Source: Pseudanabaena mucicola FACHB-723 (GTDB taxonomy: Bacteria > Cyanobacteriota > Cyanobacteriia > Pseudanabaenales > Pseudanabaenaceae). From it: DNA of 64,000 nt. The DNA lies in contig NZ_JACJQB010000003.1 in the NCBI RefSeq assembly GCF_014696385.1, positions 1-64,000 of the forward strand. The letters are read 5' to 3'. Shown piece by piece: positions 1-23,088 of this stretch (positions are counted from its first letter, which is position 1; the number at the start of each line of letters is the position of its first letter). Under the pieces are notes generated by a model, which was given only the letters and a program-made list of their open reading frames with translations, had not been told where the DNA came from and made no database searches. Position numbers and translations under genes: made by a program.

Positions 1-2
1 TT

Positions 3-446
3 CCCTATGCTTGGCAAGAGAAAGGGACGGGTTTAAGCTTACCCAGTCAACGCAGTAAGAGGTTAAATGTCGTGGGTTTGATGAATCGAAACAATGACTT
101 ATCTGCTTATGTTTTTGAACGCAGTATCACCAGTGCAGTCATTCTCGCTTGTATCGATGACTTTGCTCGTCAATCTACCAAGCCAACAGTGATTGTTATG
201 GATAAAGCCTCTATTCATACCAGTCAACTGATTCAAGAGAAATTAGAGCAGTGGAAGAACCAGCAAGTTGAGATTTTCCAGTTACCCCCTTATAGTCCCC
301 AGTTGAACTTGATTGAAATTTTGTGGCGTTTCATGAAGTATGAGTGGATTGAACTCAATGCATATGAATCTTGGGAAAGTTTAGTCTCTTATGTTGAAAA
401 AGTTCTTCGAGACTTTGGTTCAACTTATGTAATTAATTTTGCTTAG
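3..446 (+). CDS. IS630-family transposase, 3' part (5' end outside window)
   Basis: The frame is open from the first bases of the window, so the gene begins to the left of it. The visible part is the C-terminal half of a DDE transposase of the IS630/Tc1 group, which cuts and joins transposon ends at TA targets. Visible hallmarks are PYAWQEKG near the window edge, the second catalytic Asp in VIVMDKASIHTS, and the catalytic Glu in LPPYSPQLNLIEILW. The C-terminus (FGSTYVINFA) looks natural. The stop at 444-446 is followed almost at once by tnpB homology at 449, so no room is left for a normal right inverted repeat unless it overlaps the stop codon. Confidence 0.85.
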   Translation, partial: PYAWQEKGTGLSLPSQRSKRLNVVGLMNRNNDLSAYVFERSITSAVILACIDDFARQSTKPTVIVMDKASIHTSQLIQEKLEQWKNQQVEIFQLPPYSPQLNLIEILWRFMKYEWIELNAYESWESLVSYVEKVLRDFGSTYVINFA

Positions 447-448
447 CT

Positions 449-1468
449 ACTTACGACCTCAATAAGTTCATGGCTGTGCTTGCTAAGGATTTTGATTTTG
501 CAAATAAATTAAACTCCCAAGCAAGGCAATCAAGTGCTGAAAGAGCATGGTCTGGTATTGCTAAATTCTTTGATAACTGCAAAAAGAAAGTATCAGGCAA
601 GAAAGGATATCCAAAATTCAAGAAACGTAGTCATTCAGTTGAGTACAAACAAACTGGATGGAAAATTTCTGAAGACAGAAAATATCTAACTTTGACTGAC
701 GGTTTTAAGATTGGCAGGATCAAATTAGTTGGCAGTCGAGATCTAAACTTCTATCAGATCGAGCAAATTAAACGTGTCAGACTGGTTCGCCGTGCCGATG
801 GTTACTATGCTCAATTTTGTGTAGACGTTGACCGTAGAGAAGATGTTGAGCCATCTAAAACCACGATTGGTTTAGATGTTGGTTTAAATCACTTCTATAC
901 CGACAGTAATGGTCAAACTGTAGACAATCCTAGATTTCTTAGAAAATCAGAGCGTCAACTTAAAAAGTTGCAGCGCAAGGTTTCTAAGCGAAAGAAGGGA
1001 TCGGCTAATCGCCGCAAAGCAATTAAGCGATTAGCAAGAAAACACTTGCAAGTAAGTAGGCAGCGTAAAGACTTTGCAGTAAAAACTGCAAGGTGTGTAG
1101 TTCGGTCTAACGACCTGATTGCCTATGAAGACTTGCAAGTGCGGAATATGGTCAAGAATCATAAATTAGCTAAGTCAATATCTGATGCAAGCTGGTCTAT
1201 GTTTCGAGACTGGGTTGAGTATTTTGGCAAGATATTTGGCAAGGTCACGGTTGCAGTGCCGCCACAATATACGAGTCAAAATTGCTCAAATTGTGGCACA
1301 ACTGTCAAGAAATCGCTGAGTGAGCGCACTCATCAATGCAGTCATTGCGGTACGGTTTTAGATCGTGACCACAATGCTGCATTGAATATCTTGGCTGTTG
1401 GATTAAAAAATACCGTAGGGCATACGGAAATTTCTACGCCTGTGGAGAGTTCGACCTCTGCTAGTTAG
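449..1468 (+). pseudogene. tnpB: tnpB, 5'-truncated RNA-guided nuclease of an IS200/IS605 (IS1341-like) element
   Basis: TnpB uses a guide RNA made from its own element's right end to cut DNA. Homology starts at TYDLNK (449-466), and a Met codon lies at 470. The first ~70 residues of a normal ~400-residue protein are missing, replaced by the IS630 gene end. The catalytic part is intact (numbering from the Met at 470): RuvC-I Asp136 in TTIGLDVGLN, RuvC-II Glu220 in LIAYEDLQ, a zinc finger of Cys272/Cys275 and Cys290/Cys293, and RuvC-III Asp300 in DRDHNAALNIL. Loss of the N-terminal wedge region makes activity unlikely. The stop TAG (1466-1468) overlaps the stop codon of the opposing epimerase gene. 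Confidence 0.85.
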
Positions 1469-1537
1469 ATGTAAGTCTGATTAGTAAGTTGTCTCGCTGA
1501 ATCAGGAATCCCCGTCACTTCAGTGCGGGGAGTGTCA
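1370..1537 (+). ncRNA. Candidate omega/reRNA of the tnpB element
   Basis: TnpB guide RNAs span the 3' end of tnpB and the right end of the element, with the guide taken from the flanking DNA. Here that stretch contains a small stem (AGAG/CTCT, about 1445-1458) and the right-end hairpin at 1510-1530. The guide would then be antisense to the last native codons of the epimerase gene. No promoter was identified, and expression is inferred from the family only. Confidence 0.3.
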
Positions 1538-2520
1538 AAATAGCCCCGATACCATGTCACAAATTTGTCGATGCCTTCTTCGATAGATGTACAGGGCTTA
1601 AATCCTACATCCTGTATAAGTGCATCAACATCTGCATAGGTTATTGGTACGTCCCCTGGTTGCATAGGCAGAAAGTTCTTTGTCGCAACTTTACCCAGAG
1701 TTTGCTCAATTACTTCAATAAATTTGCCCAATGTTACGGGCTGATTGTTGCCAATGTTGTAAAGCTTGTAGGGAGCTGAGATGGTTCCATCTTCATTTTG
1801 AATAGGAATTTGTGGCTTTTGGATCACCCGTATGACTCCTTCAATAACATCATCAATGTAAGTGAAATCGCGCTGCATATTACCAAAGTTATATACATCA
1901 ATTGGCTGACCTTCTTCGATCGCTTTCACAAACTTGTAATAAGCCATATCGGGTCTACCCCAAGCGCCATAGACCGTGAAAAAACGTAATCCCGTTGTGG
2001 GAATTTGATAGAGATGGCTATAGGTATAGGCAATTAATTCATTGGCTTTTTTGGTAGCTGCATAGAGCGAAATTGGCTGATTGACATCATCGGTGACAGA
2101 AAAAGGGATTTTTTTGTTTGCGCCATAAACTGAGCTGGAAGAGGCGAATACTAAATGCTTAACTTGGCTATGGCGACATCCTTCAAGTAAATTTACAAAT
2201 CCTGTTAGGTTGCTATCTACATAGGTATGGGGATTTTCGATCGAGTAGCGGACTCCTGCTTGCGCTGCTAAGTTGACGACGCAATCGAACTTATACGTTG
2301 TAAAAAGAGATGACATGGCATTGCGATCGCTAAGATCCATTTGTTGAAAGGTGAAGTTTTCAAAATCTTTGATCTGCAATAGTCGATCTTTTTTTAGTTG
2401 AACATCGTAATAATCATTTAAGTTGTCGATGCCACAGACCTCATTTCCTCCCTCTATAAGGAGTCTTTTGGCTAAATGATAACCAATAAACCCCGCAACT
2501 CCTGTGACTAATATTCTCAT
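1465..2520 (-). CDS. UDP-glucuronate 4-epimerase-like SDR with transposon-encoded tail
   Basis: This is a short-chain dehydrogenase of the UDP-GlcA 4-epimerase (CapI/LspL) type, which would make UDP-GalA for the glycan assembled by the cluster. The NAD-binding GVAGFIG is at residues 7-13, the Ser-rich SSSSVYG at 127-133, and the catalytic Tyr153/Lys157 in YAATK. The enzyme body ends at FVTWYRGYF, as relatives do. The last 23 residues (from Asp329) are encoded by the right end of the tnpB element, which removed the native stop. Total length is 351 residues against the usual ~330-335. It is the last gene of the minus-strand block, 14 bp after the upstream glycosyltransferase. Confidence 0.85.
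   Translation of the reverse strand: MRILVTGVAGFIGYHLAKRLLIEGGNEVCGIDNLNDYYDVQLKKDRLLQIKDFENFTFQQMDLSDRNAMSSLFTTYKFDCVVNLAAQAGVRYSIENPHTYVDSNLTGFVNLLEGCRHSQVKHLVFASSSSVYGANKKIPFSVTDDVNQPISLYAATKKANELIAYTYSHLYQIPTTGLRFFTVYGAWGRPDMAYYKFVKAIEEGQPIDVYNFGNMQRDFTYIDDVIEGVIRVIQKPQIPIQNEDGTISAPYKLYNIGNNQPVTLGKFIEVIEQTLGKVATKNFLPMQPGDVPITYADVDALIQDVGFKPCTSIEEGIDKFVTWYRGYFDTPRTEVTGIPDSARQLTNQTYI
1510..1530 (+). repeat. Right-end hairpin of the tnpB element
   Basis: CCCCG-T-CACT, loop TC, AGTG-CGGGG: a nine-pair stem with one bulged base. In this element class such hairpins mark the right end and are recognised by the TnpA transposase. On the minus strand the same bases are read as codons of the epimerase tail. 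Confidence 0.65.
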
Positions 2521-20894: not shown

Positions 20895-21761
20895 TCATTG
20901 AGGGTAAACAATTGCATTATTGTGATAGTCTTCAAGAAAGCGCTTTGTATATAGAGAAACATAAGTTGATGGTACACCATTACCATTTTTATCTGCTGTT
21001 TCTGTAGAACTTATATCAATAATTTTTGGCACTCGATCATACCAATTGTGGTAATGCATAATTTCACCATCAAGACTGTAAAAATTACCCAAGCCATATC
21101 TTAAATGGGCAAGATCATCTCGCCAGTGTCGAGGTTCAAATGGCGGGATATAGTAGGGGTGGTCTATATAGTCAGATACATGAACCTTCATTGGATGCCA
21201 ACTAAGAGAAGATGATTCGAGACTTTCAGGAATGTTATAAGTAATGTGATCGCCGTAAAAATCAATTACTCGCTTGTAGTAAGGTATTTTAAATCTTTGA
21301 TATCGACGACTTATTGAAATATTTTTAAAACATTCCGTTTTAAAAAACATAAATGAACTTTCAGGTTTGTTTTTACCCCAAGGACGGGTGTATGGACCAC
21401 AGCCTATATCTTCTGGAGAGACAAGAACTATTTCATCTGTTAGCTTTGATATACAACGCGATGCCCATTGATTGGATAAGAATACAACATCTGCATGAAT
21501 TAATACTGTGTAGGGAGAGCGAGATGAACTAGCAAGCATATTTAAAGCTTCTGCTTGTCCACAACGTTTAACTATTAGCCGAGTATTAAATTTTTTGGCG
21601 ATCGCTTGTGTTTCATCAATGGAGACATTATCCAAAATGACGACTTCAGCTTCTGGCAAGGTCTTCTTAATTGATTCTAGGCAGAAAGGAAGAAATAGTT
21701 CACTATTCCAAGTGGTAATTCCGATAAATACTTCTGGCGTTTTTTTTATGGTCTTACTCAT
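20895..21761 (-). CDS. Glycosyltransferase family 2
   Basis: A protein of 288 residues with VFIGITTWNSELFLPFCLES, VVILDNVSIDETQAIAKKF and the acidic motif VLIHADVVFLSNQW. The C-terminal half is rich in His, Tyr and Trp (YIDHPYYIPPFEPRHWRDDL), an acceptor-side feature of some rhamnosyltransferase-like GT2s. The start overlaps the end of the next GT4 gene by 8 bp. Confidence 0.83.
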   Translation of the reverse strand: MSKTIKKTPEVFIGITTWNSELFLPFCLESIKKTLPEAEVVILDNVSIDETQAIAKKFNTRLIVKRCGQAEALNMLASSSRSPYTVLIHADVVFLSNQWASRCISKLTDEIVLVSPEDIGCGPYTRPWGKNKPESSFMFFKTECFKNISISRRYQRFKIPYYKRVIDFYGDHITYNIPESLESSSLSWHPMKVHVSDYIDHPYYIPPFEPRHWRDDLAHLRYGLGNFYSLDGEIMHYHNWYDRVPKIIDISSTETADKNGNGVPSTYVSLYTKRFLEDYHNNAIVYPQ

Positions 21762-23088
21762 GTTGTTTTAATGTATTTTCAATTTTTTGAAGATGTTTAA
21801 TAAATTCTTCTTCATTGGCATTTTTACCATAAGAATGCGGCCACTCTCCACCTGCACTCTGATGCTCAAAACGAATCCCTAAAAATTTTCTAACTGTCTC
21901 TGCTAATCTATTTCCTAATAAACGATCAAGTTTCCCTGACGGTGGAAATTTTTGTACTGTTTTAGGTAATTGCTTAGGTGGTAATTTCATGATCTTATCA
22001 ATTGCTTCTTCCCACATTTGGATTGAATTGGCACGACTATAACGTTGACAGACAAGTTCACGTCCTGCTTGACTTAAATTAAATTTTAGTTCTGGATCTT
22101 GCAACCGTAAAATTGCTGTTGCGGCTGCTTTAATATCGCCAATTGGAAAAGTAAGGCAGTTTTTCTCATTATGTAAACTTCCTTCTATGCCACTACCAAT
22201 ATATTGGGATGTAACTAAAACTAAGCCATTAGCCATTGCTTCCCAAGCTACGATCGGTCCAGTTTCCCAAGTAGAAGTTAATAAAAGTGCAGTGCTTGAT
22301 TGATAAATGTAAGTATTAAGCTCTTCTTGGCTTAATACTCCTTTAAATTCCACCCTATCACCAAATATGGCTAGAGCAGAACGTAGAATCTCCTCATCAG
22401 GTCCACTACCAGCTAAAACCAATTTATAGTGATTAGTATACTTTTCAAGCTCAGTCAAAATAAGAGGAATATCACTAATTTTCTTTTGCTGTTCTTCAAA
22501 ACGCCCGACATAAGCCAAGCGCAAAACATTTTGACTGGTTTGTCCAATATCGGGCTTAACAGTATCAACGCCGTATGGAGCATAAAATAATCTCTCTGTT
22601 TCAAAAACACAAAAATTTTTAATTAGTTGAGTAAGTAATTTATTAGTTACAACTATTGCATCAATAATAGTCCTAAATCTATTAATATCATCCAAAAAAT
22701 CTGCCTGAGCGCCATGAAGGGTCATAACAACTTTCGGAGATGTCACAAATCCCTGTGAACGAATTCTTTCCACCGCTAGATAAGTATCAACAATATTGAC
22801 ATTTACAATCAGATCAGGATTTAGTTTTTTGAAAGCAGAGGCTAAAGCACAAATTCGACCTTCTTGAGAGCCTGTCTGATTTTTAACACAATAAAAACTT
22901 CTAAAAGGGTGCTTCTCTAGGTATTGTTTTGTATCGTGATATTTGCCCTCGGTTAAAACAAAAGTTACATTCCATCCTTTTGACTCAAGCCCTGTAATGA
23001 GATAGTCTAGCCAAACTTGAACTCCCCCAAGTACATAGGCACTTGGGGCGACAACAGCAATATGGTGATTAGTTATAAAGTTATTCAT
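21754..23088 (-). CDS. Glycosyltransferase family 4
   Basis: A protein of about 444 residues from the ATG at 23088 (MNNFITNHHIAVVAPS). A start 19 codons further upstream would overlap the previous gene and adds an untypical Cys-rich leader. GT4 signs are YVLGGVQVWLDYLITGL, LRLAYVGRFEEQQKKISDI and E-x7-E in ETGPIVAWEAMANGLVLVTS. The last ~50 residues (NRLAETVRKFLGIRFEHQS...) form an extension ending in a short coil-like stretch. Confidence 0.83.
   Translation of the reverse strand: MNNFITNHHIAVVAPSAYVLGGVQVWLDYLITGLESKGWNVTFVLTEGKYHDTKQYLEKHPFRSFYCVKNQTGSQEGRICALASAFKKLNPDLIVNVNIVDTYLAVERIRSQGFVTSPKVVMTLHGAQADFLDDINRFRTIIDAIVVTNKLLTQLIKNFCVFETERLFYAPYGVDTVKPDIGQTSQNVLRLAYVGRFEEQQKKISDIPLILTELEKYTNHYKLVLAGSGPDEEILRSALAIFGDRVEFKGVLSQEELNTYIYQSSTALLLTSTWETGPIVAWEAMANGLVLVTSQYIGSGIEGSLHNEKNCLTFPIGDIKAAATAILRLQDPELKFNLSQAGRELVCQRYSRANSIQMWEEAIDKIMKLPPKQLPKTVQKFPPSGKLDRLLGNRLAETVRKFLGIRFEHQSAGGEWPHSYGKNANEEEFIKHLQKIENTLKQHE

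Follow-up and report, generated by a model that had tools for sequence, protein, structure and literature searches.

The window analysed here, a 64,000-nucleotide stretch of DNA from Pseudanabaena mucicola FACHB-723 (contig NZ_JACJQB010000003.1, assembly GCF_014696385.1, positions 1 to 64,000 of the forward strand), holds on its minus strand the open reading frame (ORF; 2520-1465, 351 codons) of a nicotinamide adenine dinucleotide (NAD)-dependent nucleotide-sugar epimerase, the last part of which is read from the right end of a transposable element carrying tnpB. We are highly confident that a tnpB-only element of the IS200/IS605 type inserted at the end of the epimerase gene, giving the protein a tail encoded by the element. 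In the window, the conversion of a transposon end into the end of a host enzyme's ORF can be followed to the base in a natural setting, with the empty site still readable. Other copies of the element frequently replace a host stop codon with one from their own end, and this wider pattern offers a simple reason why such elements are found at gene ends without gene breakage and predicts both where TnpB elements can settle and where new protein tails arise.

The element-derived end of the epimerase ORF

The boundary between element and host DNA is 1538|1539, and the features around it are:

1539 to 2520, minus strand: host-derived part of the epimerase ORF (codons 1-327 plus the initial base of codon 328)
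1465 to 1538, minus strand: 3′ end of the epimerase ORF supplied by the element (the last two bases of codon 328, then codons 329-351 and the stop codon TAA)
1535 to 1538, plus strand: TCAA (minus-strand TTGA), the element's right terminus and similar to the IS608 right cleavage site, as seen from sites in the genus, other genera and IS608
1510 to 1530, plus strand: subterminal right-end hairpin containing a single bulged T, supported by folding and covariation
1506 to 1509, plus strand: GAAT immediately 5′ of the hairpin, with the letters of the IS608 right guide, read from the sequence

Since the boundary falls inside codon 328, this codon is a hybrid of a host T and an element TT (residue Y changed to F), and the 23 residues 329-351 are encoded entirely by the element, in agreement with a first-pass annotation that had seen the last 23 residues as supplied by the transposon and read in frame on the other strand. 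The same annotation had placed the boundary at about 1537, at residue 329, which is corrected here to 1538|1539. It had also described the two stop codons as overlapping at 1465-1468, and they do overlap, but the shared bases are only 1466-1467 (epimerase TAA at 1467-1465, tnpB TAG at 1466-1468). On the minus strand, one frame of the right end stops immediately and the other two stay open for 7 and 24 codons; the epimerase uses the 24-codon frame.

The identity of the right end was established by a DNA search of 26 genomes of the genus, with matches in 10, the window's own genome included. In the first 28 loci (L093-L120), the sequence is common up to ...TGTCAA (window position 1538) and is followed by unrelated flanks, with BLAST alignments that overshoot or fall short of this point by a few bases at some of these loci. 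Right ends were accepted if the match reached within 3 bases of the end and the first 60 flank bases were new (e.g., L105 was dropped as its match stops early), which left 85 ends from 102 loci, 82 of them at distinct sites; the terminal tetranucleotide at these 82 sites is TCAA in 80 cases, TTAA in one and TCAC in one, and all 21 loci from other cyanobacterial genera end in TCAA as well. The first-pass annotation had proposed a search for other copies in the same genome; many copies with the same hairpin and end were found in the genus, but the genome of the window itself (3.96 Mb, 94 contigs) gave only one other right end, a degenerate one. In one genome of the genus, a pair of oppositely oriented right ends is separated by about 400 bases (L193 and L196; G011:C257, about 21,283 to 21,779).

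The hairpin, with arms CCCCG, bulged T, CACT / AGTG, CGGGG, had likewise been taken for the right end of a tnpB element from the sequence alone, and the genus copies sharing this hairpin and end, together with its covariation, bear this out. Folding of 1490-1545 as single-stranded DNA gave z = -2.6 (1 of 200 shuffles was equally or more stable); across 45 distinct right ends, changes on both sides are seen in 7 of the 8 pairs, and 91.7% of hairpin cells pair vs. 78.3% in shuffles and 26-59% when the partner is shifted along the sequence. A hairpin arising by chance is ruled out by the comparison with shuffles and the covariation. In IS608, GAAT is the right guide and TCAA the right cleavage site (PMC5934647), and by analogy GAAT at 1506-1509 may act as the right guide of the present element.

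The relatives of the epimerase speak to the origin of the tail. The closest named relative, from Pseudanabaena cinerea FACHB-1277 (82% identical), is 328 aa long and ends WYLDYYK* (TGG TAT CTG GAC TAT TAT AAA TAG) at the junction position, with TTTAT at the same place, as anticipated from the sequence. A native extension of this epimerase lineage, overlapped by an element end by chance, would find a parallel in the C-terminal extensions that several relatives have of their own (e.g., L014, L020, L029, L030, L037), but these are unlike the window's, and the tail DTPRTEVTGIPDS is absent from all 80 related loci, its best match anywhere in them having E 0.59. Further, the tail DNA is a common element right end found beside unrelated flanks elsewhere, and the joined host flanks (below) stop at the ancestral place; hence, we give a native origin virtually no credence. 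The same 80 loci hold no tnpB relatives at E 1e-5, and right-end DNA gave two weak matches among them (L018, E 0.002; L026, E 0.075), neither touching the gene-end tail, with that of L018 being about 1.7 kb from the gene end.

On sequence grounds, the ORF certainly has the extended short-chain dehydrogenase/reductase epimerase fold (Pfam Epimerase, E 6.9e-56). It is a candidate UDP-glucuronate 4-epimerase, for which none of the NCBIfam equivalogs reaches its own cut-off; the best solved chain is 5u4q, and MoeE5 (6kv9) matches at E 2.9e-32. An AlphaFold2 model of the 351-aa protein (36-sequence alignment; mean predicted local distance difference test score, pLDDT, 83.9) has its final helix ending at 329 and pLDDT <50 for residues 333-351. 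The model predicts a disordered tail and an otherwise intact fold, and the fused epimerase is presumably produced and functional.

The empty site and the displaced stop codon

The left half of the element is on another contig of the assembly, C31, because a copy of an IS630-family element splits tnpB. The features of the window involved are:

454 to 1468, plus strand: 3′ part of tnpB (guided_TnpB), split by IS630 from the 5′ part on C31, with which it forms an in-frame junction; the ORF from the first ATG is 470-1468
1 to 451, plus strand: right part of the IS630-family element within tnpB (transpos_IS630, NCBIfam, E 7e-32), with a TA duplication at 452-453 and TA on both sides
1439 to 1508, plus strand: weak RAGATH-18-like stretch, a possible guide-RNA scaffold (25.8 bits vs. 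a gathering score of 44.9, E 0.064; sub-threshold, a lead only)

Contig C31 reads host ...CCTTTAGTTAT, left end, tnpB start, TA, IS630 left end, and holds the only tnpB 5′ half found; the two halves meet IS630 at TA and fit one frame of 389 codons. Contig C30 was rejected as the source of the tnpB half, with its IS630 match running to query base 460. The left end is preceded by TTAT on C31, as it is in 13 of 13 copies in the one-contig genome G007. Joining the host flanks gives TTAT|AATAGCC without target duplication, and the joined epimerase ends TGG TAT CGG GGC TAT TAT AAC TAA, or WYRGYYN*, at 329 aa, with the break point after the first T of codon 328. The original stop is at C31:368-370; that is, the insertion did remove the stop from the end of the gene, as had been proposed, but by displacing rather than deleting it.

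These data suggest a simple course of events. The element inserted 3′ of a TTAT whose opposite strand forms the last codons of the epimerase, TAT-TAT-AAC-TAA. The break after the first base of codon 328 left the remainder of this codon, together with AAC and the stop, beyond the element, and the reading frame now continues into the right end in its one frame open for 24 codons.

It is important to note that three points weigh against this reconstruction. The join of C31 to the window was inferred across a repeat, not from reads: the IS630-family element has 32 nearly identical matches in the genome, 14 of which begin at base 1 of a contig, so that it evidently breaks the assembly, and the window's contig likewise begins inside it. 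In addition, a DNA comparison of the C31 flank with the sequence that follows the gene in P. cinerea gave no match, and hence synteny gives no support, and the left-end query was taken from other genomes, so that a more diverged tnpB half could escape. The links not being directly read, the join could be an assembly coincidence, with the element inserted here but its true left flank elsewhere. However, a single tnpB 5′ half was found, the two halves adjoin at TA and stay in frame, and once the host flanks are joined the epimerase ends within one residue of that of P. cinerea; we therefore consider such a coincidence very improbable and favor the insertion at the epimerase end described above.

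The TTAT target, the hairpin, the TnpB domains and the empty site agree with the IS200/IS605-type insertion read from the sequence initially. The 3′ part of tnpB matches NCBIfam guided_TnpB above its cut-off (E 1.7e-80) and IS200_TnpB below its own, as well as OrfB_IS605 (E 1.2e-30) and the zinc-binding Cas12f1-like_TNB (E 2.8e-22); these domains, the imperfect subterminal hairpin of the right end and the fixed target without duplication are those of a tnpB-only (IS1341-type) member of IS200/IS605. Excluding the later IS630 insert, the element measures 264 + 1085 = 1349 bp, too small to hold tnpA. Y1 transposase (PF01797) has no match in the window's genome and matches, some of them weak, in 7 of 7 other genomes of the genus searched. 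The element may now be stuck, since no TnpA was found in its genome and tnpB is split. IS607 elements are without subterminal inverted repeats (PMC9956272), and membership in this family was rejected given the covarying subterminal hairpin and a RAGATH-18 match below threshold. This sub-threshold match adjoins a tnpB with IS200/IS605-type ends, although RAGATH-18 is tied in print to IS607 TnpBs.

Stop-codon exchange at other copies

TTAT is the complement of A-TAA and TCAA that of T-TGA; therefore, an insertion at an in-frame host stop restores a stop at once, with an empty site NNA-TAA becoming an occupied NNT-TGA in the immediate-stop frame. For each of the 85 right ends, we recorded the phase in which any host ORF of at least 100 codons crosses into the element: such ORFs enter in the immediate-stop frame at 15 copies (14 of the 82 distinct sites), in the fusion frame of the window at 4 and in the third frame at none. 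Orthologs were read for 14 of the 18 long-ORF sites, while L214, L219, L205 and L110 had none among the matches listed.

Unoccupied orthologs were available for 11 of the 14 immediate-stop sites, and at 9 of these 11 (L103, L183, L193, L136, L178, L118, L100, L200 and L188) the occupied gene stops at the same residue as one or more of its orthologs. The last residue itself is identical at 8 of the nine; L200 differs (N for K), and a second L200 ortholog has one extra codon. The protein at L191 gains one residue from the insertion, and the orthologs of L211 are shorter by two codons, ending in a tail that has diverged. TTAT is missing at the corresponding place in some orthologs. The swap of one stop codon for another is directly seen at element copies, whereas selection for it is hypothetical.

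The epimerase is an out-of-frame near miss of this swap. Further near-end fusions are found at L213 (G003:C34) and L202 (G011:C30), with element-encoded tails of 35 and 17 residues, orthologs that continue 4 and 8 codons, respectively, and TCAT at the site. At L220 (G003:C61), the right end cuts a gene internally, and the ortholog is without a stop in the stretch read; judged by a motif, this gene is tentatively Fic-like.

Relative to random TTAT sites, stop sites are clearly in excess among the insertions (14/82 vs. 80 of the 4295 TTAT sites, or 1.9%, counted over the window and 400 kb of G007; p 1e-9). Most of this excess is the remainder expected after the loss of gene-breaking insertions. 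When sites inside ORFs of 100 codons are excluded, 8.3% of the harmless sites are stop sites by chance (80/960) vs. 14/78 observed (p 0.012), and the chance share in the window alone is 10/99. We find it reasonably probable that the stop swap reflects survivorship, that is, gene-breaking insertions disappear and what is left are the harmless TTAT sites, stop sites among them, with neither targeting nor selection being needed. The presence of TCAA can be explained otherwise, as this is the right cleavage site in IS608, and outside the genus ORFs of at least 100 codons enter in the immediate-stop frame in 2 of 21 loci (L295, L304) and in the other two frames in none, both of which are consistent with survivorship. 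Nonetheless, stop sites are still about twice as frequent among the insertions as among harmless sites generally, and a stricter gene definition gives 52/1148 vs. 14/78 (p 3e-5); the excess over harmless sites is only moderate and depends on gene calling.

It is tempting to speculate, but rather doubtful, that the swap is built into the element, given that the targets (TTAT, and TCAT at two sites) and TCAA all complement N-TRA. Under this hypothesis, the stop of a convergent gene is replaced with the length and usually the last residue kept, gene ends represent a safe landing zone that may have shaped the ends of the family, and near misses in the other frames, such as that in the window, make new C-terminal tails antisense to the guide RNA of the element. 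The guide of TnpB itself is the sequence adjoining the right end. If that holds for the present element, its guide RNA would run antisense to the epimerase message at its end, the fused tail included.

Comparison with known systems

Our literature search, which covered listed titles and selected passages, found no description of stop-codon swapping by IS200/IS605 ends, and the portions available of PMC3119063 and PMC7290912 hold nothing on it. Several known systems nevertheless share elements of what is described here. Like IS608 and IS200/IS605 elements more generally, the present element inserts 3′ of TTAN without target duplication, has subterminal hairpins and ends in TCAA after a hairpin with a GAAT foot; unlike IS608, its target is TTAT rather than TTAC, it carries no tnpA, and its right end is read as host coding sequence (PMC5934647). 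Among 39 insertion sequence elements, TCAA and TTAT are common right and left cleavage motifs, respectively (PMC9956272).

In IS200/IS605 elements, the guide RNA of TnpB overlaps the coding sequence of the protein, whereas the RAGATH-18 guide RNA goes with IS607 TnpBs (PMC11061315); the weak match beside tnpB resembles the latter arrangement, but it is sub-threshold, and the hairpin ends and TTAT are IS200/IS605 features.

The closest parallels to an element end within host coding sequence come from Borrelia and the IStrons. IS605B stem-loops are found at Borrelia lipoprotein genes, in one of which 8 nt of an IS605B left end lie inside the 3′ coding end, so that, as here, an element flank forms part of the 3′ coding end of a host gene; that case involves a left end, 8 nt and no transposase gene left, whereas the present one involves a right end and 23 residues, with the empty site read (PMC2775950). 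In IStrons, the start of the element makes an in-frame stop, and group A inserts after TTGAT, ATTAT or TTTAT (PMC4227781). The IStron stop has its role in the splicing of the intron, and the interrupted genes share the strand of the element, whereas the stop described here lies on the other strand and replaces that of the host (PMC4227781).
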